This document shows positions 848-14,640 of a stretch of DNA of 32,202 nt, piece after piece. The notes beneath the pieces are model-generated. The model did not search any database. It saw only the letters and a program-made list of their open reading frames with translations, and was not told the DNA's origin. The DNA comes from an uncultured Clostridia bacterium. GTDB taxonomy: Bacteria; Bacillota; Clostridia; Oscillospirales; Ruminococcaceae. Both the position numbers and the translations under genes were made by a program. The DNA lies in the NCBI GenBank assembly GCA_947627945.1, contig CANQYC010000008.1:1-32202 (forward strand), written 5' to 3'. The first letter of the stretch is position 1; each line of letters opens with the position of its first letter.

Positions 848-2587
848 TTACTTTACCAATCCATTTTCGGAAATATACTGCATAAACGTGTCAATAATAT
901 CGTTGGTACGTCTGATAATATCGTTTTCAGTGAAATCATCATTTGTTTTGGCAAGATTCAGGAGTTCATTGATCCCTGTTCCTTTTTTCTCCTGATTTCT
1001 GCTGTTGATATATCCATTGTAATATTTCTTCTTATCTTCAAAGCGATAGTCGGAGGCACGGATATTGATGCGCTTTTCAAGCATAGCCTTGTTGCCGAGT
1101 GATTCGAGATTTTTTACATCTGTTAATGATTTTTCCTTATCCTGACGATTTTTTGCATAAATATGCTCAATTTCAAATACAGTTTCTAAAGAAAGAAGTC
1201 CCTGAGAATCATCAAGAAAAGCCCACCATGCCAGCATGGCTTTTGTGATCGGACGACCATTATTAAAACTGAAATTGAGGAATGCAGATCTTACAGAGTT
1301 AATGTCAAATTTGAAGTCACTGAAAGCCACAGGATTGTCATTCACAATATTCACCATTTCTGCATATACTGGCGTGCGAAGCATATTGACCCCCGGATTG
1401 ATTACCGCATAAGTCCAGATGAAAGCTGTTATCTTTTCAAGAAAAACAAAAAATGCATCATCATTCAGATCGCCTTCAGCATCACGGTTGTGCAGATAGT
1501 ATACAGATACAAAATAGTACCACATACCATTCGGGGCATAATTCAGAACAAACAATTTCCGCAATATTTTTTCAGAAAATCTGTCTTTACTCTGATTCGA
1601 TACATCATTCCAGAAATCCGCCAGATCACGCAAATTTTCAAACGTTTTCTCATTTTTCAGCAAGGCATAGGAATTTTTCTCATAAAATTTACGGAGAGCT
1701 TCTGTGGTGGAGCTTTTGATTCCTTGTTTTGCCCTTTCATAATACATATACCGGGTGAAAAGTTCATCCATGGGTGTGCCGGAAATTGGATGAAAGATCT
1801 TGTTGCAAAGTTCCTCTAAATCTTTCCACTTTCTGATAAAATCATCTTTTTTGCCCTGTGAGGAAAAGAATTTATAAAACTGTGCCTTGAAAATATCGGA
1901 ATCCGATAACGGCATACCCCTGTCATTCAGCGTTGAGAAAATGCGCAGGGCTGTATCCTGTGATTCCGCTTCAATTGGGAGCAGAATGCAGTTGTTGATA
2001 AGCCTTGCTGGTAGATAGGCAAAATATGTAGGATAGTCATTCAAAAAATCATTGATCTTCTCTTGAAAGAAACGATAATTTACCGCATACTGGCTTTTCA
2101 TATCTTCAGGAGCTTCTCCTGTTTTAAGAATGCTGAGAAATTCGTCTTTCTGTACATCTGTTGCAACTTCAGAGTCTATTTTCAGCTGTGTTTTGATGAT
2201 TGCTCCGAGTTCATCTTTTTTCCATATGCATTTTTCAACTCGCTCCTGTACTAATTTCGTATCTGAATCTTTCATTTTGCCGAAACGTGCATAAAATGCT
2301 CGTAAAAGGAGCATCAGCGTTGTCAGGCGTTGCTGTCCGTCGATGATCTCTTGTTTACCATCATCATTCTTGAATGTCACGATCGGACCGAGAAAGTATT
2401 CATCAGTTGTTCTGAATTTTTCACTATTATCATCAGGGAATGCAAAAGAAAATATATCGTCCCACAGTGTTCTGCATTCTGTTTCCGACCAAGCATAAGG
2501 ACGCTGATAATCCGGGATCAGGAAATCGGTTTTCGGGTCGCTGAAAAGCGATTCGATTGTTTTCTGGTCAATGTTCAACTTTGACAT
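848..2587 (-). CDS. DUF262/DUF1524 (GmrSD-like) protein, putative type IV restriction/defence nuclease
   Basis: 579 aa. N-terminal IPDYQRPYAW and DGQQRLTTLMLLL (DUF262), C-terminal FEIEHIYAKNRQ...LESLGNKAMLEKRINIRASDYRFEDKKKYY (DUF1524 HNH-like). Confidence 0.85.
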   Translation of the reverse strand: MSKLNIDQKTIESLFSDPKTDFLIPDYQRPYAWSETECRTLWDDIFSFAFPDDNSEKFRTTDEYFLGPIVTFKNDDGKQEIIDGQQRLTTLMLLLRAFYARFGKMKDSDTKLVQERVEKCIWKKDELGAIIKTQLKIDSEVATDVQKDEFLSILKTGEAPEDMKSQYAVNYRFFQEKINDFLNDYPTYFAYLPARLINNCILLPIEAESQDTALRIFSTLNDRGMPLSDSDIFKAQFYKFFSSQGKKDDFIRKWKDLEELCNKIFHPISGTPMDELFTRYMYYERAKQGIKSSTTEALRKFYEKNSYALLKNEKTFENLRDLADFWNDVSNQSKDRFSEKILRKLFVLNYAPNGMWYYFVSVYYLHNRDAEGDLNDDAFFVFLEKITAFIWTYAVINPGVNMLRTPVYAEMVNIVNDNPVAFSDFKFDINSVRSAFLNFSFNNGRPITKAMLAWWAFLDDSQGLLSLETVFEIEHIYAKNRQDKEKSLTDVKNLESLGNKAMLEKRINIRASDYRFEDKKKYYNGYINSRNQEKKGTGINELLNLAKTNDDFTENDIIRRTNDIIDTFMQYISENGLVK

Positions 2588-2722
2588 TTATAACACCTCC
2601 ATTACACCCATTTGACATTGTTCCGTAGTCACTTTATATGCTGATGCTATGTTATCAATTTGTTATCACGGGCTTGTACAGTACCCTGAAAACCCCTGTA
2701 ATCAGGGATTTTCAAGGGGCTG

Positions 2723-2738
2723 TTTATTATTCCCACTC
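2723..2738. repeat. Putative attachment-site core (distal att of the guaA-integrated element)
   Basis: TTTATTATTCCCACTC matches guaA 3'-end TTTATCATTCCCACTC at 11996-12011 with one mismatch. The minus strand reads GAG TGG GAA TAA (E W E stop), the conserved guaA C-terminus. Confidence 0.75.
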
Positions 2739-2742
2739 GCTC

Positions 2743-2770
2743 CTTGAACTGTAATCTTAACCAGTTCAAG
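2743..2770. repeat. Inverted repeat beside the att core
   Basis: CTTGAACTG (2743-2751) and CAGTTCAAG (2762-2770), 10-nt spacer, within 5 bp of the att core. Confidence 0.6.
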
Positions 2771-2867
2771 TTAAGTTTTATCGCTTGTGGTATCTCAATT
2801 ATCTCAGTTGTCTGTCAGATTTGGAGTATCTGATTTTTTGTTGCCATTGTGTTGCCAATTCACATTT

Positions 2868-3764
2868 CTAAAAGAGCCCCATCATTTTAGCGTTTATTAG
2901 ATCAGCAGTGACATTTGCACCCAAACAAATTAAGTATTCTTTTAAACCTGATAAAGCGGATTTTATTAGTAAGGGACTTTTCTTTTCAATTATTTTCGTC
3001 TCAACTTCATCAACTAATTCGTTTGCATTAGCCATGTCATCTGAGGAAAGTGGTTCGTTTTTTAAGCTTTCTCTTATTTCATCAGCTAATTCAGTACTAA
3101 TATTTGTATTCATTGTAACAGTATTGTTATCTCCACTTGTTATCTGAGTTTTTTCTACATTTCCATTGATAACCGTCCCATAGTAATTATTGATTTGCTG
3201 CGGAATTTCTTTAGCCGCATCTGTTTCAGTTTGATTGAATATCATTTCATCACCTTTTATTCCTTGTTTTTCTAAAGTTAATGTCCATTCTAATAAGCAG
3301 TTTTTGACCTTATCGGTTATTTCATTCAATAAATGGAGACTAAAACTAATAATATAGCTTGTAGGGAATGGTGCAGTGCATATTTTATCAATAACTCGTG
3401 CTGCATCGGTTGAAATATTGATCTGAAAACTATTTGAATCTGATTTTGAACTCAACTCAATAATCGCACTAATCGAATCTTTCAACTTTCGGGTGCAAAT
3501 TGTTTCCTCCATTTTTCCATCCATGAATAATACACGTTTCCAACCATGATAAGGATTAAATGCTTTTAATACTCCCATAATTTGTCTGTATTCAGGTATT
3601 TCTTTCTCATCACATTTATATCCGTTTAGTTCAGAGAGTATCCAACTATCAAATTCTGTAAGATTTAATTTTGATGCTATAATATGTGCTTTACGTAATG
3701 CACTTACTATATCACAATTATTAACTAAAAGATCACGTTGTAGTTCTATAACTACACTGCCCAC
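2868..3764 (-). CDS. AbiTii-domain protein, putative abortive-infection/defence cargo
   Basis: N-terminal ELQRDLLVNNCDIVSALRKAHIIASKLNLTEFDSWILSELNGYK resembles the AbiTii N-terminal domain; later a polar segment INNYYGTVINGNVEKTQITSGDNNTVTMN. ORF track starts at TTG 3782, but SD GGAGG precedes GTG at 3762-3764, taken here as the start. Confidence 0.65.
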   Translation of the reverse strand: MGSVVIELQRDLLVNNCDIVSALRKAHIIASKLNLTEFDSWILSELNGYKCDEKEIPEYRQIMGVLKAFNPYHGWKRVLFMDGKMEETICTRKLKDSISAIIELSSKSDSNSFQINISTDAARVIDKICTAPFPTSYIISFSLHLLNEITDKVKNCLLEWTLTLEKQGIKGDEMIFNQTETDAAKEIPQQINNYYGTVINGNVEKTQITSGDNNTVTMNTNISTELADEIRESLKNEPLSSDDMANANELVDEVETKIIEKKSPLLIKSALSGLKEYLICLGANVTADLINAKMMGLF

Positions 3765-3807
3765 AATAGATTCCTCCCTCAATTTTTCCTGATTTTTGCT
3801 AATTGTG

Positions 3808-4923
3808 TTATTCCTGTCCCGACTTCTTCAAATTACAATCCCTACACAGCATCTGCAAATTCTCCGGAACGGTCTTGCCGCCTGCGTGCCAAGGCTTGAT
3901 GTGATCTCCGTGCATCTGGGCAAACTCATAATGTTTATTACATATCGGACAAATACCTTTCTGACGTTCGTAGGCTTCACGCTTCTGCGTGTCGGAGAAT
4001 ACTCTGATACTAAGATTTCTCTCATCACCGTCAAGGACATATGTGTATATCCCTTTTTTGTTGCCAACATCATCGTCAGCCATAAGCCGTGTGATAGTAG
4101 CTTCAAGTGCATCAGGATCAAGCTCCGTATCCTTGTATATATTATAAAGCAGTCCCCACTCTATACCTTTCATTTCTTTGCGGTATACGGGGAAAATTGT
4201 TTCCACCCACTCAATCACTCGCTTGAAGTAGATCCATATCTGATTAGCATTTGCATCATGCTGGTGAAGTGCCATATACTTTTCAATTGTATCCAAGCCG
4301 TCACGGGCAGCAATCCACCTGATAGCGGTTTCGAGATATTCTTGCCTTATGGGAGAACCGGACACATAGTTCTTTGCCATATTATAGGCAGCACAGGTCG
4401 GCTTTGAGAAATGCAATTTTGCATCTGAAAGCCAAGTGCCTGTATAGGCGGTATTGCGAAGCTCCTGAGCTGTCAGTGGTTTACCTGCTATATTGATGAC
4501 CTTGAACCACTCATGCACTTCCGAGGGCGTACCGTCACATATATAAATATCGAGAACATAGTCATCTATCTGCTTTTGCAGGTCTTTTTCCAAATTAAAG
4601 TAATATTTTTCATCTACTGCAAATGTTCGCTCACTTTCAGCAGCGTAACGGCAGATTGAAATTGTTCTCTGCTGTCCGTCCATAAGTTCATAGCGTCCGT
4701 CATCGGTTTTTGCCCAGTACATTGTGTTCAGCGGAAAGCCTTTCTTGACAGTACGGATTACTTCATCACGCTCTTTCGGTGCATAGACATATTCACGCTG
4801 ATAAGGTGGTCTTACATCGAGCAGTCCGCCATAGGCGACAATGCCCTCTATACCGTCTGTTCCACGTTCTTCATAGCCTTGACACAACTCTGCTACAGAG
4901 ATTTGAATGCGTTCAATTTTCAT
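3808..4923 (-). CDS. DUF262 domain protein with C-terminal HNH endonuclease
   Basis: RPPYQREYVYAPKERDEVI and LMDGQQRTISI (DUF262); C-terminal CPICNKHYEFAQMHGDHIKPWHAGGKTVPENLQMLCRDCNLKKSG (HNH with CxxC pairs). Confidence 0.88.
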   Translation of the reverse strand: MKIERIQISVAELCQGYEERGTDGIEGIVAYGGLLDVRPPYQREYVYAPKERDEVIRTVKKGFPLNTMYWAKTDDGRYELMDGQQRTISICRYAAESERTFAVDEKYYFNLEKDLQKQIDDYVLDIYICDGTPSEVHEWFKVINIAGKPLTAQELRNTAYTGTWLSDAKLHFSKPTCAAYNMAKNYVSGSPIRQEYLETAIRWIAARDGLDTIEKYMALHQHDANANQIWIYFKRVIEWVETIFPVYRKEMKGIEWGLLYNIYKDTELDPDALEATITRLMADDDVGNKKGIYTYVLDGDERNLSIRVFSDTQKREAYERQKGICPICNKHYEFAQMHGDHIKPWHAGGKTVPENLQMLCRDCNLKKSGQE

Positions 4924-4927
4924 TTTA

Positions 4928-5974
4928 TCACTCTTTTCTTTTTCTTATAGCTATTCTCTTATATTTTGCTTTGCCATTTATTACAGGTTTTGCAAGGTCA
5001 AGTTCGTTTGTAACACTACCACCATCAAATTTACCGAGAATTTCAAATTGTTCATCACAATGTGATGCAAGATAAGTAATTGGTACACCCATTATCTTAT
5101 CAGTATCACAAGGTATTTCTGCTACAGTTTCAACGTGAATAGCATCATAGGTATCATATGTGGGGTACATCTCTGGCGTATAGTGTTTATAGAGGTCAAG
5201 TGGTTGGTGACGAATATCTATATCCATATTGGTAAACCAGCATATATTTCCGAGTCTTCGCCATTTTTGCCCGTCCTCGTCCTGCTTGTAGTCTGTATTC
5301 TTTGATTCATAATAATCGGGTACTTTGAACCAGAAATGCCCGGCATTATATCCAAGCCACATTTTATTTTCCCTGAAATAATGAAAAATTTCCTTAAATG
5401 TGATATGATTCATATTTCCAAGAACAAGAAATAACTTTCCACTTTCGGCAAGCAGTGGGATATACTCTTTCATCAGAGAAAACGGTGGATTTGTTACAAC
5501 AATATCGCATTCATTCAGTAGTTCAATACACTCTTCAGAACGAAAGTCGCCGTCCCCATCCAAAAGCGTGAGAGCGTTCTTTTGGTTTCTCAGCAGATAT
5601 TCCACATCGCTCAGATCAACTGTCGAATCACCGTTGGCATCTATAACTTCTGTAATTTCTATTTTATAGGGCTTTTTTCCGTTTCCTGATGAATATGTGA
5701 TTTCCTCATCGTCAAACAAAGAAAGCTGAGTATAAGTGATAGGAGAAGTTGCATAACAAGTTGTAATCAGCTTTTTAAGTCCAAGAGCATTGAAATTCAA
5801 AGCAAAATACTTGAAAAAATTGCTCTCATAGGGGTCATCACAGTTGCAAAGAACAATTTTTCCTTTGAAATACCTTCTGTAATGCCGCAGTTCTTCTTCA
5901 ATTGTGGATAGCTGCGTGTAAAATTCGTCAGTCTTTCCTGTTTTTGACATATGTAAATTGCTGTTGCCTGCCAT
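4928..5974 (-). CDS. EcoRI-family adenine-specific DNA methyltransferase
   Basis: 348 aa; KTDEFYTQLSTIEEEL, CDDPYESNFFKYFALNF, VVTNPPFSLMKEYI (NPPF catalytic motif), FWFKVPDYYE. SD GGAGG upstream of ATG 5974; 4-bp gap to the DUF262-HNH gene. Confidence 0.85.
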   Translation of the reverse strand: MAGNSNLHMSKTGKTDEFYTQLSTIEEELRHYRRYFKGKIVLCNCDDPYESNFFKYFALNFNALGLKKLITTCYATSPITYTQLSLFDDEEITYSSGNGKKPYKIEITEVIDANGDSTVDLSDVEYLLRNQKNALTLLDGDGDFRSEECIELLNECDIVVTNPPFSLMKEYIPLLAESGKLFLVLGNMNHITFKEIFHYFRENKMWLGYNAGHFWFKVPDYYESKNTDYKQDEDGQKWRRLGNICWFTNMDIDIRHQPLDLYKHYTPEMYPTYDTYDAIHVETVAEIPCDTDKIMGVPITYLASHCDEQFEILGKFDGGSVTNELDLAKPVINGKAKYKRIAIRKRKE

Positions 5975-6237: not shown

Positions 6238-7529
6238 TTATTCCAGTCCCCACGATTTTTTCTTTTTGGTGGTAGACTGCTGTTGTGTTTCCTGTTTTTG
6301 TTGACTGTGAACGTACTCCTGAACCTGTTTGATTTCAGCGTACTTCTGCGGTTCAAAGCGTTTCAGTAAGTCAATAAACTCTGTCAGACTGTCAACCGTC
6401 CTCTGCAAATCTGAATTATTACGAGTAAGTTCGTTAATTCTTCCGGATCTCTCCATACCTCTTTGCCATAATTCACTTCGTTCTTTTTCGCATTTGTCGT
6501 ACTGCTCACGCAGAGCATAAACCGTATCGGTTGCCTTGTCTGCTCTTGAATTGACCTTTTTGACAAGTTTGCAAAGTTTTTGCACATTGGCAATAATGTC
6601 GTCCTTGTACTTCATAATAGACAGTTTACTTTTCAGCATTTCAGTGAGTTCAGTAATGATTTCAGCACATTTATTCTTTAACTTTTCGTCCTTTTCCACA
6701 TCGGGCAAATAATTGAGAATTTCATTGACTTTTGCGACTTTGTCCGTAATCTGCCCGTCAAGATTTTGGCATTCAGATTTTTTCTGTTCAATTTCTGATT
6801 CTGCTCTATCATTTTCTGTTTTCAGTGCATCGGCTTTCTGCCGTTGCTCTTTGTATTCAGCGACTTCCAATGTTCCTCTGGATTTTTCCGGTGCAAGCGG
6901 TTCAATACCGTGTTCACGGCAAATCTGATTCAGCACTTCCACCTCAGCAGAACGCCAACGGGCAATTGCCTGTTTTCCCTCACCAAATCCCATTTCTTTC
7001 AGGGCTTGTGCAATGCCGTTTTGGGTATCTTGTCCACGCTTGTAATGCCCGATGGGAATGTAGTCGATGTGCAGGTGCGGAGTTGCCTCGTCCATATGCA
7101 AAACCGCATTGAAAACATAGAAGTTCGGATTGCGATTTTGGAATCCGTTCATATACTCTTTCAGGCATTCTGCAACAAGCTGAAAATCTTCCGTGCCGTA
7201 ACCTGAATCTTCCATTCTGCCGATTTGCACAACGTCCTCATAAAAACTTTTTCTTTTGTCAGCAGCAGTACGGACATTGTTGCACGGTTTCACACCGAAA
7301 AGATGTTCATAATAACTGCCGTGAATTTTTCGATCATTGCGTTTCTGTCCGGCATTGTAACGCTCCGTTGATTCTGCAAAAAGCTGTTCATATGCCTCAC
7401 CTATCGGCTGACACACGAAAGTAATATTTTCGTGTGTGCGGAACACATCAACATTGTCCGCAATGAACTTCCGGTTGTTGTGAGTAATCGAGCCTTTGCC
7501 CTGCCCGAATGAAACTCTTTTTTTTTCAT
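6238..7529 (-). pseudogene. MobV/Pre-family relaxase, N-terminus out of frame across an A9 tract (frameshift or slippage)
   Basis: Main ORF 6238-7446 has NAVLHMDEATPHLHIDYIPIG and a long coiled-coil tail. The conserved N-terminus (VSFGQGKGSITHNNRKFIADNVDVFRTHENI) lies upstream in the same frame, but the SD-preceded ATG (7527-7529, MKKK) is out of frame because the A-tract is 9 rather than 10 or 7. Confidence 0.85.
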
Positions 7530-7652
7530 TTTTTCAAGACCTTTCTTTAATTGGATTTTCTTCTTTCTCTCTACGAAATCCAATCAGTTTTTACATCGAC
7601 AACAACTCCTTTCAAGACAGCAAAGATGAGCATTGCTAACCGCAAACGGATC

Positions 7653-7811
7653 GTTTCCGAATGATGACGGAGCATCACGGAAACAAAGCTGCGGAGCAGC
7701 AAATTACAAGCGAAGTGTCGCTTGTAACGCCATAGTACTTGTGATAGGGAATAAATCCCACATCACAAGTACATGGCGCCCTGCGGGGCAATCGGCTGAC
7801 GGAGCAGCCGA
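7653..7811. other. Dense array of six stem-loops (possible oriT/origin or structured RNA)
   Basis: GTTTCCGAATGATG-acggag-CATCACGGAAAC (7653-7684); GCTG-cggag-CAGC (7689-7700 region); TTACAAGCGA-agtg-TCGCTTGTAA (7704-7727); CGCCAT.GTACTTGTGAT.GGGA-ataaa-TCCC..ATCACAAGTAC.ATGGCG (7728-7778); GCCC-tgcg-GGGC (7778-7789); TCGGCTG-acggag-CAGCCGA (7792-7811). Confidence 0.75.
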
Positions 7812-7974
7812 AAAAATTTCAAAATCACCATTCAAAAAATGCTGAAAATCCGCATTACATTTTTGAAAAATCAACATTCTTTCCATAAAATTCTTCCCGT
7901 GACGATCCGTGTCGATGGTGACGGTCTTTTTGAGTCCTCACAAACATCGTCACGACCGTCACACATCGTCACGC

Positions 7975-9198
7975 TTAATGCTTTTCTGCTTTATCAGTAT
8001 CCAATTCAGGTTCAACAATGATAGGATGATTGGCATCATAGCGGAGTGCGATTTTTCTTCCTTTGTGACTTCTGGAATTGCTGTACTGCACAAAATAAAG
8101 ATTGTACAGCTTTCCGGCATTGACATTCAGTTTCAATGACAGCGTATTCGGCTTGATGTCAAGCTCCAGTTTTTCGATAAGTTCGGTAGCCGTTCCCTCC
8201 CAAGCCGGATTGTCAGCATTGATGAAATTTCCGATTGCTTCAAGCACAGGTTCAGGCGGTTCAGCGTAATTTGGCGACTGTTCTCCCTTGAAATCCCAGC
8301 AGAGAGTTTCCTTGTTTCGGAAAATCGTGAATTTCCTGTCCGCCTGATCTCTGCCTGAAACTTCAATTGTTGCATCGCCGTCAGTGCGTTTTGATTTGTA
8401 CATAATGAAAGCTCCGTCAGCCGCACCGAGCAGACCGTTTGTCCCCGAAATCTTGTCGAAATTGTCATCAGACTTCTGCTTGCGGGTATGGTGTACCAGT
8501 ATCAGACAGATACCTGTTTTATCTGCAAATGCTTTCAGTCCGGCGATAATGTCATAATCTCTTGCATAACTATAAGTATCGCCCTCAGTTTCACGCACTT
8601 TCTGCAAGGTATCAATAATCACCAAACTGGTATCAGGATGATTTTCGAGGAATGCACCAAGCTGTTCAATTAAGCCGTCGTTCAGAGATTTTGAAGCAAC
8701 TGAAAAGAAAAGATTTGATGCTGTTTCCGTGCCAAACATTCTGTAAAGACGCTCCTGCAATCGGCGGTAATCGTCCTCTAAAGCGAGGTACAGCACCGTA
8801 CCCTTGCGGACGGAATAGTTCCACATCGGCGTTCCGGAACTGACATGATAGGCAATCTGGGCCATCATGAAACTTTTTCCGACTTTCGGTGAACCAACGA
8901 ACAGATATGTTCCCGGATAGAGAAAATGCTCAATAATTGGCGGTTTACCGGAATAAACCATTTCATACAGTTCCAGCATCGAAACCGTCTGCATAAATCC
9001 GGGAGAGTTTTCATACTCCGTCTTTGCTTGTGCCTGCATTTCCTGCTCGTACTCCTGTTGTGCAAGGAAAATTTCTTCTTTTGAGGAGTTGAAATTCTCC
9101 CCGTAATCTGGTATAATAGTAGGTGTTAAATCAGGTGACTGCCCGACCTCTGCGCCAACAGAGGTCATAGGGGCGGTCACTTTTCTTTCTTCGGTCAT
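7975..9198 (-). CDS. RepA-like AAA ATPase/helicase (AAA_25 type) of the mobile element
   Basis: 407 aa; Walker A FVGSPKVGKSFM, Walker B SLVIIDTLQKV, ILVHHTRKQKSDDNFDKISGTNGLLGAADG, C-terminal HTH-like region. Confidence 0.85.
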   Translation of the reverse strand: MTEERKVTAPMTSVGAEVGQSPDLTPTIIPDYGENFNSSKEEIFLAQQEYEQEMQAQAKTEYENSPGFMQTVSMLELYEMVYSGKPPIIEHFLYPGTYLFVGSPKVGKSFMMAQIAYHVSSGTPMWNYSVRKGTVLYLALEDDYRRLQERLYRMFGTETASNLFFSVASKSLNDGLIEQLGAFLENHPDTSLVIIDTLQKVRETEGDTYSYARDYDIIAGLKAFADKTGICLILVHHTRKQKSDDNFDKISGTNGLLGAADGAFIMYKSKRTDGDATIEVSGRDQADRKFTIFRNKETLCWDFKGEQSPNYAEPPEPVLEAIGNFINADNPAWEGTATELIEKLELDIKPNTLSLKLNVNAGKLYNLYFVQYSNSRSHKGRKIALRYDANHPIIVEPELDTDKAEKH

Positions 9199-9521
9199 TC
9201 TTTATCTCCTTTCAAGCCATTCAGCGTTGCTGTGATAAGCTGAATTGTAGACAACAGTTCGTCATTCACAACAGAGCTGTTTTCAATTCGTTTCAATTCA
9301 CCGAGGACTTCCGCAAGTTGATTTTTCAGAGCCTTGTAAACTTTCGGATTCCCCTGCACCACCACATCACGGCACAACAAGCGTTTTACGATGTAGTCCT
9401 GCTTGGTCAGTCCCGAAAGAGCCACTGCTGAATTGATCAGCTTTTCTTCTTCAGGCGAAACACGGAAACCGACTGTCCTCGCCCTGAATCTGCCCTTGCT
9501 GTCAAGATTCTTCGCTGACAT
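9195..9521 (-). CDS. MobC-like mobilization/relaxosome accessory protein
   Basis: MSAKNLDSKGRFRARTVGFRVSPEEEKLINSAVALSGLTKQDYIVKRLLCRDVVV: ribbon-helix-helix MobC-like N-terminus. Start at ATG 9521 chosen by AAGGAGG spacing; overlaps the integrase 3' end and the repA start. Confidence 0.65.
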   Translation of the reverse strand: MSAKNLDSKGRFRARTVGFRVSPEEEKLINSAVALSGLTKQDYIVKRLLCRDVVVQGNPKVYKALKNQLAEVLGELKRIENSSVVNDELLSTIQLITATLNGLKGDKE

Positions 9522-10596
9522 CTGCATCACCTCCTTTCCGTAAGTTGTCCAGGTTGTTTGCCATTTCTTTCTGTTTCGATGGGAAAAGGTGAGCATAGCG
9601 ATAAGTAATATCAATACTCTCATGACCTACCCTGTCCGCTATCGCAACGGCAGAGAACCCCATTTCGATGAGAAGAGAGATATGCGAGTGTCTAAGGTCA
9701 TGAATGCGGATACGCTTCACACCTGATTTTTTCGCTCCTCTGTCCATTTCGTGATGCAGATAGCTTTTTGTTATCATGAACATTCGGTCATGTTCTCCGA
9801 TGCCGTAGAGCTGATTGATGAAATCCTGCATCTCCTGAGAAAGAAAGTCCGGCATCTTCACTACACGATTGCTCTTTGCGGTTTTCGGATCAGTGATAAT
9901 ATCCTGTCCCTTAATACGCTGATAAGACTTTGTAATAGATACTGTCTGTTTTTCAAAGTCGAAATCCGCAGGAGTGAGGGCAAGCAATTCTCCCAGACGA
10001 ATACCGCACCAGTACAGCATTTCAAAGGCATAGAATGAAACAGGCTTGTCCATCATCGCCTCTGCAAATTGCTTGTATTCTTCCTGCGTCCAAAACAGCA
10101 TTTCACGAGTTTTCGCTTTGCCCATATTCCCTGCTTTTGCGGCAGGATTGCTTTTAAGCCCGTAGAACTTAACCGCATAGTTGAACACAGCACTAAGCTG
10201 ATTGTGGAGCGTTTTCAAGTATACAGGCGAATAGGGTTTTCCTGTCTTGGTTGAACCTTCGAGCATTTCATTCTGCCACGCTATCACGTCTTTTGGCTGA
10301 ATATCGCACATCTTTCTTTTCCCGAAGAATGGAATCAGCTTTGTGCGGAGGATATGCTCTTTGGTGTGCCATGTGTTATCTTTCAGACGTTTCTTCATAT
10401 CCTCAAAGTAAATGTCCGAAAAACTCTCAAAGGTCATATCAAGGCTTGATTCTACCTTATTCATCTGCTCACGCTCCCACGCCTGAGCTTCTCTCTTTGT
10501 GGGAAATCCACGTTTCTGTGTCTGCTTGCGTTCTCCACGGCTGTCGGTGTAACGATAAATCACACGCCACTTGTTACCGTCTTTATAGACTGACAT
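9502..10596 (-). CDS. Tyrosine recombinase/phage-type integrase
   Basis: SVYKDGNKWRVIYRYTDSRGERKQTQKRGFPTKREAQAWE (AP2-like arm-binding domain), CGIRLGELLAL, IRIHDLRHSHISLLIEMGFSAVAIADRVGHESIDITYRYAHL (catalytic R..HxxR..H..Y). Confidence 0.95.
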   Translation of the reverse strand: MSVYKDGNKWRVIYRYTDSRGERKQTQKRGFPTKREAQAWEREQMNKVESSLDMTFESFSDIYFEDMKKRLKDNTWHTKEHILRTKLIPFFGKRKMCDIQPKDVIAWQNEMLEGSTKTGKPYSPVYLKTLHNQLSAVFNYAVKFYGLKSNPAAKAGNMGKAKTREMLFWTQEEYKQFAEAMMDKPVSFYAFEMLYWCGIRLGELLALTPADFDFEKQTVSITKSYQRIKGQDIITDPKTAKSNRVVKMPDFLSQEMQDFINQLYGIGEHDRMFMITKSYLHHEMDRGAKKSGVKRIRIHDLRHSHISLLIEMGFSAVAIADRVGHESIDITYRYAHLFPSKQKEMANNLDNLRKGGDADVSEES

Positions 10597-10597
10597 T

Positions 10598-10804
10598 TTA
10601 TTCCTTCCTTTCTTGATTTCCCGATTTACTGCCATAGCAGGTTCTTTCGAGAAAGTACTGCTTGTTGATTCTGCCTGAAATTGTGATGTATCCCATATCT
10701 TCCAGTTCCTTATTCAGTCTTTGCACGACCTTATAGGCATACGATTTGGAAACATCAAGTTCTCTGGCAACATCTTCTACTCTCATAAAATTTTTATCTG
10801 TCAT
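10598..10804 (-). CDS. Excisionase-like/HTH DNA-binding protein
   Basis: MTDKNFMRVEDVARELDVSKSYAYKVVQRLNKELEDMGYITISGRINKQYFLERTCYG, immediately upstream of the integrase. Confidence 0.75.
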   Translation of the reverse strand: MTDKNFMRVEDVARELDVSKSYAYKVVQRLNKELEDMGYITISGRINKQYFLERTCYGSKSGNQERKE

Positions 10805-11995: not shown

Positions 11996-12011
11996 TTTAT
12001 CATTCCCACTC
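11996..12011. repeat. Putative attachment-site core at guaA 3' end
   Basis: TTTATCATTCCCACTC; encodes the guaA E-W-E-stop on the minus strand and matches 2723-2738 (15/16). Confidence 0.75.
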
Positions 12012-13538
12012 AATCGTCGCCGGAGGTTTCGTCGTAACATCATACACCACCCGGTTGACCGACTTTACCTCTCCCACGATCCGGGATGCGGTCACGGCGA
12101 GTACCTCATAGGGGATCTGTGCAAAATCCGCTGTCATAAAATCACTGGTGGTCACCGCCCGCAGGGCAACGGTGTAATCATATGTCCGGAAGTCGCCCAT
12201 GACGCCGACCGAGCGCATATTCGTAAGCACCGCAAAATACTGGTTGATGTCCTTGTCCAGTCCAGCCTTTGCGATCTCCTCACGGAAAATATAGTCCGCA
12301 TCCTGCAGGATCTCCAGCTTCTCCTCCGTGATCTCCCCGATAATCCGGATCGCAAGCCCCGGTCCCGGGAACGGCTGCCGCCATACCAGTGCCGGATGCA
12401 GCCCCAGCTCTGTTCCGAGCTTGCGCACTTCATCCTTGAACAGCATCCGCAGCGGCTCGATGATCTCCTTGAAATTCACATGATCCGGCAGACCGCCGAC
12501 ATTGTGATGGCTCTTGATAACTGCCGCATCTCCCAGTCCGCTCTCGACCACATCCGGGTAGATCGTGCCCTGTACCAGAAAATCTACCTGTCCCAGTTTT
12601 TTTGCCTCCTGCTCAAATACCCGGATGAACTCCTCGCCGATCGTCTTGCGCTTTGTCTCCGGATCAGAAACGCCCTGCAGCTTTGCCATGAACTGTTCTT
12701 TTGCATTCACACGGATAAAGCGCATACCGCTGTCCCGGAACGCCGCTTCGACCTCGTCGCCCTCATTCTTGCGCAGAAAACCATGATCCACAAAAATACA
12801 TGTGAGCTGCTCCCCGACTGCCTTTGCCAGCAGTGCCGCAGCGACAGAGCTGTCCACGCCGCCTGACAGCGCAAGCAGCACCTTGCCGTCCCCGACCTTT
12901 TCCCGGATCTCTGCAATGGCGGTCTGTGCATAGCCTGCCATCGTCCAGTCACCGACACAGCCGCAGACATTTTTCAGGAAGCTGTCGATCATCCCCAGCC
13001 CCGCAAAGGTATGGTTCACCTCCGGATGGAACTGCACCCCGTAGAACTTCCGTGCAGGATCTTCAAAAGCCGCCGCCGGGCAGTCCGCCGTATGCGCCGT
13101 GACCGTAAATCCTTCCGGCAGCTCCGAGACATAGTCCGTATGGCTCATCCAGCTCGTTGCCGTCTCCGGCAGGTGGATGCCGCCGAACAGCACACTGGAA
13201 CGGTCATAGTGCGTCTCCGTCTTGCCATATTCTGAATTGACGCAGGAAGCCACCTTGCCGCCGAGGGTATATGCCATCAGCTGGCAGCCATAGCAGATGC
13301 CCAGGATCGGGATGCCCATGTCAAAGATCTCCCTGCCGATATGCGGAGAGCGTTCGTCATAGACGCTGTTGGGACCTCCTGTGAAGATGATGCCGGCAGG
13401 GGAGAGCGTGCGCAGCTCTTCGAGAGGGGTCTGATAACTTTTGATCTCGCAGTAAACGCCGCATTCCCGCACACGCCGTGCGATGAGCTGGTTGTACTGT
13501 CCGCCGAAATCAAGTACGATAACAAGCTGATGATCCAT
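12000..13538 (-). CDS. guaA: GMP synthase (glutamine-hydrolysing)
   Basis: [25 protein letters not shown]..., [32 protein letters not shown], ...[20 protein letters not shown] before ATG 13538. Confidence 0.97.
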
Positions 13539-13557
13539 AATGTTACTCCTTTTGGAA

Positions 13558-14640
13558 TCAATGTTCCAGTAATAATCTTTCATCACAATATTCACATGTC
13601 AGGGTCGTTCCCGTGCCGGTGAAGCTTTTGGGCAGATACGGCTCCGCATGCGTGATGCACTTCGGATTGCGACACACCACCCCCGGGTGGACACTGCCGG
13701 AGAGCAGCCGTGTTTTCTTTGTACTTTGCAGCATCGTGAGGATGAGTGCCATCCGCACATACATCCCGTACTTTGCCTGTTTGAAGTACAAAGCCCTCGG
13801 ATCGTCATCGACTGCGACGGCGATCTCATCCACACGGGGCAGCGGATGCAGGACGATCATGTCCTGCCGGGCAGCCTTCATCTTTTTCGGTGTGAGGATG
13901 TAGGTATCCTTCTGTGCCAGATACTCCTCCTCCGAGGCGAACCGCTCCCGCTGGATGCGTGTCATATAGAGCATGTCCAGCTCCGGGATGGCTTCCTCAA
14001 GGCTCCTGACCTCCGTGAAGCTGCATCCATGCGCCCGGATGATGTCCTTGATGTAGGACGGCATGGCAAGCTCCTTCGTGGAGATCATGATAAAATGGTT
14101 GTCCGGGTAGCAGCTCATCGCCTTGCAGAGGGAATGTACCGTCCGTCCGTTGAGCAGATCGCCGCAAAGTCCGATCGTCAACCCCGAAAGTGTGCCCTTT
14201 TCGCATTTCAGGGTCAGCATGTCCGTCAGCGTCTGTGTCGGATGCAGATGCCCGCCGTCTCCCGCATTGATGACCGGGCAGTCAGCCGTCAGTGCCGCCG
14301 CCTTGGCAGCACCGACAGTCGGATGCCGGATGACCAGCACATCCGAATAGCCGCTGACGATCTTAGTCGTATCTTTCAGATTTTCGCCCTTTGCGACCGA
14401 AGAAGTCTGCGGGTTGTCAAACCCGATGATCGTCCCCCCCAGCCGGAGCATTGCCGTCTGGAATGACATCTGCGTGCGGGTAGACGGTTCATAGAAAAGC
14501 GTCCCCATGATCTTCCCCTTGCAGCTATTGGCGTAGAGTACAGGATTTTGCAGGATCTCCTGTCCCAGATCCAGCAGCCCGTTCCACCAGCTCACCGGGT
14601 GGTCATTCAGATCAATCAGATGCGGATAGTCCGAAACCAT
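13558..14640 (-). CDS. pyrB: Aspartate carbamoyltransferase with C-terminal PyrI-like zinc-binding tail
   Basis: [48 protein letters not shown]-terminal [18 protein letters not shown]...[10 protein letters not shown] resembles the PyrI zinc domain. Confidence 0.93.

Follow-up and report, generated by a model that had tools for sequence, protein, structure and literature searches.

The six stem-loops that fill about 160 nt between repA and the relaxase gene (7651-7811) are very probably, to judge from comparative sequence analysis, the origin of transfer (oriT), together with some of the leading region, of a mobilizable element that is integrated at guaA and encodes a relaxase of the Mob_Pre/MOBV type. 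The oriT is almost certainly a site of a known kind, to which extra, structurally conserved hairpins have been added here. We favour this reading because the array is linked to relaxase genes, upstream and on the same strand, in genomes and on plasmids, because its stems covary, and because the predicted nick has the anatomy described for MobM and MobSag. The observed part of the case comprises structure, covariation, strand bias, relaxase linkage and anatomy. An earlier note on this DNA had listed an oriT read by the relaxase among its options, and relaxase linkage, covariation and nick-site anatomy now strongly support that choice.

The element and its relaxase

The window analysed, 32,202 nt long, is one of the 137 contigs that make up a 1.9-Mb draft genome (81% complete); among named organisms, its closest relatives are Ruminococcus and other Oscillospirales. 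At 12.0 kb the GC content rises abruptly, from about 0.40 to 0.56, and this step coincides with the 3′ end of guaA (minus strand, 12000-13595). The genes to the left of guaA are all minus-strand as well: an excisionase-like gene, a tyrosine integrase (9502-10635), a NikA-like accessory mobilization protein (9195-9623; PF21983, E 4.7e-11), a RepA-like AAA_25 ATPase/helicase (repA, 7975-9198) upstream of the putative oriT, and the Mob_Pre relaxase. Past the relaxase, also on the minus strand, comes a defence-type cargo at 848-5974, made up of an EcoRI-type adenine methylase, two GmrSD-type proteins and AbiTii. Going by its gene content, this set is an integrative and mobilizable element inserted beside the guaA 3′ end. 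A repeat of the guaA end that could mark an attachment site was sought, and no copy of at least 12 nt occurs within the window; the left end of the element would therefore lie outside the contig or have been lost. A MobV element at guaA is already known, namely ATE-1 of Trueperella pyogenes, which shares with the present element a tyrosine integrase, the guaA 3′ end and a MobV relaxase, but is actinobacterial (PMC5704250). A second, shortened repA copy at the start of the contig (175-754 against 8078-8657, 94% identical) is probably a neighbouring element or a remnant.

The relaxase gene lies on the minus strand at 6238-7512, with a listed open reading frame of 6238-7446 and a conserved N-terminus that extends to 7512. 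Its product scores 44.8 bits against Pfam Mob_Pre (gathering cut-off 25.5) and reaches 33.4 of the 100 bits set for the NCBIfam MobV equivalog, so it is a divergent relaxase that belongs to MOBV in the broad sense only. The HxxR and HxDExxPHUH motifs are present as HNNR and HMDEATPHLH. HNNR is encoded ahead of the listed GTG start, in a frame other than that of an ATG at 7529; nine A come directly after this ATG (7511-7529, minus strand), and the conserved N-terminus with HNNR is shifted by one base relative to it, where relatives read through. The frame offset at the A9 run may stem from an assembly error or from decay, or the run may be a slippage site. A leader inverted repeat at 7550-7584, ATTGGATTT...AAATCCAAT, immediately precedes the relaxase start and is kept in close relatives. 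A search of IMG/VR with the relaxase found no relatives, and a sequence search of solved structures gave coiled-coil chance matches only.

Six hairpins with conserved stems and variable loops

The six consecutive stem-loops between relaxase and repA that the earlier note described are confirmed by folding. The minimum free energy of the 186-nt region is -85.6 kcal/mol on the plus strand and -88.2 kcal/mol on the minus strand, whereas shuffled sequences average -45.8 and -48.1 (z -9.6 and -9.5), and 0 of 200 shuffles did as well. On the minus strand, H1 (7792-7811) is a 7-bp hairpin with the loop CTCCGT, which most relatives have with loop or stem altered, and H2 (7778-7789) is a small GC hairpin that reads GCCCCGCAGGGC or GCCTCGCAGAGC in relatives. 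H3 (7728-7778) is the long-stem element already pointed out at this position; it is a long inverted repeat with an apical stem and a 1-nt bulge in its right arm, and it ends at the predicted nick. H4 (7704-7727) begins with the first base 3′ of the predicted nick and is bounded by TTAC...GTAA, with a variable, covarying inner stem. H5 (7688-7700; GCTGC-TCC-GCAGC, a 5-bp stem with a 3-nt loop) lies in the predicted leading region, and H6 (7651-7686) has a 9-bp outer and a 5-bp inner stem, a 6-nt loop and a TT bulge on its 3′ side. An AT-rich block with GTAATGCGGATTTT at 7841-7864 is kept upstream of H1 in many relatives.

A CGGAG loop shared by several of these hairpins, and retained while the stems differ, had drawn attention to the array. 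Such loops do exist on the plus strand; that of H5, in contrast, is really three bases long and sits on a stem of 5 bp, so that its 'CGGAG loop' is partly stem. Nor is the loop what relatives retain: theirs vary in H1 (CTCCGA, CTCAGT, CTTTGT, TGACCT), H5 (TAC, TTC, TGC) and H6 (ATCCTT, CATAGCTTGT, GTCCCT), and the conserved part of the array, by covariation, is the stems and not the loops. This variability weighs against the array being an RNA that displays GGA loops and titrates CsrA, as had been suggested on the strength of three plus-strand loops with ACGGAG/GGA. The GGAG sequence is moreover on the wrong strand, opposite all genes of the element and opposite the strand of constrained structure (the G.T versus A.C bias, given below, favours minus), and CsrA, proposed as a check in the host, has no match in the organism's own genome (81% complete). 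As GGA loops are not conserved on the transcribed strand and the assembly yields no CsrA match, a CsrA-sponge RNA has a negligible chance of being correct. Rfam searches of the hairpin region gave no score at or above the gathering threshold for any known RNA family and nothing credible at a relaxed E-value; its DNA had no match in plasmid and phage records.

Covariation, strand of structure and linkage to relaxases

Relatives were gathered by relaxase similarity, and their upstream DNA was read toward the relaxase. Most share a core in which a GC hairpin is followed by a long inverted repeat with G as its last base; next come TTAC and a further hairpin that has GTAA at its end. In a 16-sequence alignment of the core, 93.7% of cells are paired, against 33-50% with the partners slid. 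A covariation search across related elements had been proposed earlier, and it shows that the stems covary, with 25 double-change cells in the core against 9.1 in shuffles that leave the kinship of the sequences in place. The covarying inner stem of H3 is 98.4% paired among the 16 relatives, and H4 keeps TTA...TAA with compensated changes in its inner stem. Among 32 distinct sequences, the non-Watson-Crick cells, read on the relaxase-coding strand, comprise 53 G.T, 2 A.C and 28 other mismatches, a count biased toward standard pairs by an alignment that was fitted to the model. The surplus of G.T over A.C indicates that the selected structure forms on the relaxase-coding (minus) strand, and it is the relaxase-coding strand that is nicked in pMV158 (PMC5863519).

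When 249 genomes of the family were scanned with a covariance model (R1) that spans the long repeat, the hinge and the second hairpin, 59 matches of at least 35 bits resulted, with forward matches typically outscoring reverse ones by about 50 bits. A relaxase match lies within 8 kb of 45 of the 59, on the same strand in every case (45/45), and 43 of these 45 are 110-1165 nt upstream of the relaxase. The remaining 14 have no relaxase match nearby, several of them because they stand at contig ends. R1 also matches genomes in other families of the order. Plasmids too have R1 matches ahead of their relaxase genes, namely those of Blautia hydrogenotrophica (typed MOBV) and Pusillibacter, and pRGF00037 (also typed MOBV); a Bacillus arachidis plasmid has the same layout, judged by eye. 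In the window, too, the array is upstream of the Mob_Pre/MOBV relaxase gene and on its strand, as is expected of an oriT.

This linkage bears on whether the array could instead be a replication origin, double-strand or single-strand/lagging-strand, used by RepA. It does directly follow the RepA-like helicase gene, hairpins are typical of single-strand origins, and H5-H6 could be such a part. We nevertheless consider a RepA origin very unlikely, since in many genomes and on plasmids the core precedes a MOBV relaxase gene and without exception shares its strand, and since a better origin candidate lies beside repA. This candidate, which by its sequence may be a RepA origin or a terminator, spans 76 nt directly behind the gene (7898-7973) and is an imperfect inverted repeat built from GTGACGATG/GACCGTCAC units. 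The same repeat occurs upstream of the oriT in several relatives (L010, L011, L030, L047), with a lone copy at G000:C11:25016-25058.

The predicted nick and comparison with known oriTs

The predicted nic dinucleotide is the G/T at 7727-7728 of the minus strand (G7728/T7727; ATGGCG/TTAC in the window), exactly between the two hairpins H3 and H4. It lies in G/TTA, which is invariant in all 35 forward matches listed, and the 3′ end of the inverted repeat abuts the G/T dinucleotide, an oriT-like arrangement at the level of sequence and structure. In pMV158, MobM (the MOBV1 prototype) acts via a histidine and cleaves 5′-GTGTG/TT-3′ where the bulged inverted repeat IR3 has its 3′ end; on binding, it opens the base of IR3, so that about 8 nt separate the inner IR1 from the nick (PMC5863519). 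The pMV158 oriT resembles the present site in its position upstream of the relaxase on the coding strand, in a long inverted repeat with a right-arm bulge whose 3′ end is the nick (predicted here), and in G/TTA at that nick (again predicted here) (PMC5863519). H3 is the counterpart of IR3/IR1, and its inner stem ends 7 nt from the predicted nick, against 8 nt in pMV158 (PMC5863519). IR2, which spans the nick in pMV158 (PMC5863519), is reduced to 3 bp in the window and measures 5-6 bp in distant plasmid-like relatives; in its place a separate hairpin, H4, comes right after the predicted nick. H1, H2, H5 and H6 are extra relative to pMV158, and the array is about 160 nt long, compared with about 43 nt for the pMV158 repeat region (PMC5863519). 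The pMV158 group (MOBV1) is marked by three overlapping inverted repeats including IR2 across the nick, and with at most 3 bp of IR2 in the window, the present site does not, strictly speaking, count as a MOBV1 oriT.

The oriT of IMESag-rpsI (MobSag, MOBV1) likewise belongs to an integrative mobilizable element, where it precedes a MOBV relaxase gene, and is cleaved within GTGCG/T, near the GGCG/TTAC predicted here; it measures 42 bp with three overlapping repeats, and the available part of its description mentions no flanking hairpin array (PMC5090054). The open literature yielded nothing relevant on the occurrence of this oriT in Ruminococcus or Faecalibacterium or on the string TGCGTTAC, which is weak evidence of absence.

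The hinge also helps to weigh the array as a structured mRNA leader that controls relaxase expression by attenuation or translational control. The constrained strand is the mRNA strand too, the short inverted repeat at 7550-7584 stands just before the relaxase start, and a hairpin with a T-rich tail (7700-7688) scored as terminator-like, at about the rate of chance (1 found, 0.6 expected), as did the promoter and terminator scans as a whole. Against this, the invariant feature is G/TTA where two hairpins meet, an arrangement like that of nic sites, the distance from array to gene varies from about 110 to more than 1000 nt, and there is no Rfam match. A leader in place of an oriT is thus unlikely. 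Translational control may be a secondary role alongside the oriT, because the coding strand is mRNA as well, and the array may act as both because MobM represses its own gene through its oriT (PMC5863519).

As an oriT, the array would work as follows. After excision, the Mob_Pre/MOBV-type relaxase would bind H3 extruded on the relaxase-coding (minus) strand, probably with the help of the NikA-like protein, and would open the basal part of H3 below the 1-nt bulge. The G/T bond at the predicted position 7728/7727 would then be cleaved, probably through the HNNR histidine, and the nicked strand would enter the recipient 5′ first, with H4, H5, H6 and the relaxase gene.

The H5-H6 module

H5 and H6 covary in their own right. 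H5 has 15 double-change cells against 5.9, and H6 is 97.2% paired, with 10 of its 13 pairs changed on both sides; its TT bulge is invariant in 11 sequences in which the surrounding stems change. A model of H5 and H6 together (R2), searched in the same genomes as R1, gave 11 strong matches, ten of which lie 1-4 nt downstream of an R1 core and share its strand, while the eleventh (G211:C1) is at a contig end. The module is absent from some relatives. Its position directly after the core ties H5-H6 to this oriT lineage as a module.

By the predicted polarity of transfer, H5 and H6 would be in the part that enters the recipient first. The likeliest role of H1, H2, H5 and H6 is as sites for relaxosome proteins or in single-strand functions in the recipient. 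More tentatively, H5-H6 might be a separate module of the leading region, which would enter directly behind the 5′ end to which the relaxase is bound and act as a structured ssDNA signal in the recipient, for example for complementary-strand priming, early transcription from ssDNA or re-binding of the relaxase for closure. If so, MOBV oriTs would have a feature that the open papers we found do not describe. The conserved TT-bulged hairpin H6 offers a target for studying the role of structured leading-region DNA in Gram-positive mobilization.

Together, the core model and the H5-H6 module form a searchable oriT signature for mobilizable elements of gut Oscillospirales, for which we found no published oriT in the open literature. 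With this signature, elements that have only an oriT can be found, and the nick is predicted with single-base precision. In a related element of Ruminococcus bicirculans 80/3 (L008, about 5730-5930), an H6-like hairpin is kept and the core repeat and nick are lost, so this DNA is probably no longer nicked there. Another locus (L121, 5946-6069; G208:C12) has the core and H5-H6 with no relaxase match on its contig, adjoins what by eye is an apparent IS5-type transposase gene, and looks like a relic or an oriT-only mobilizable stretch.
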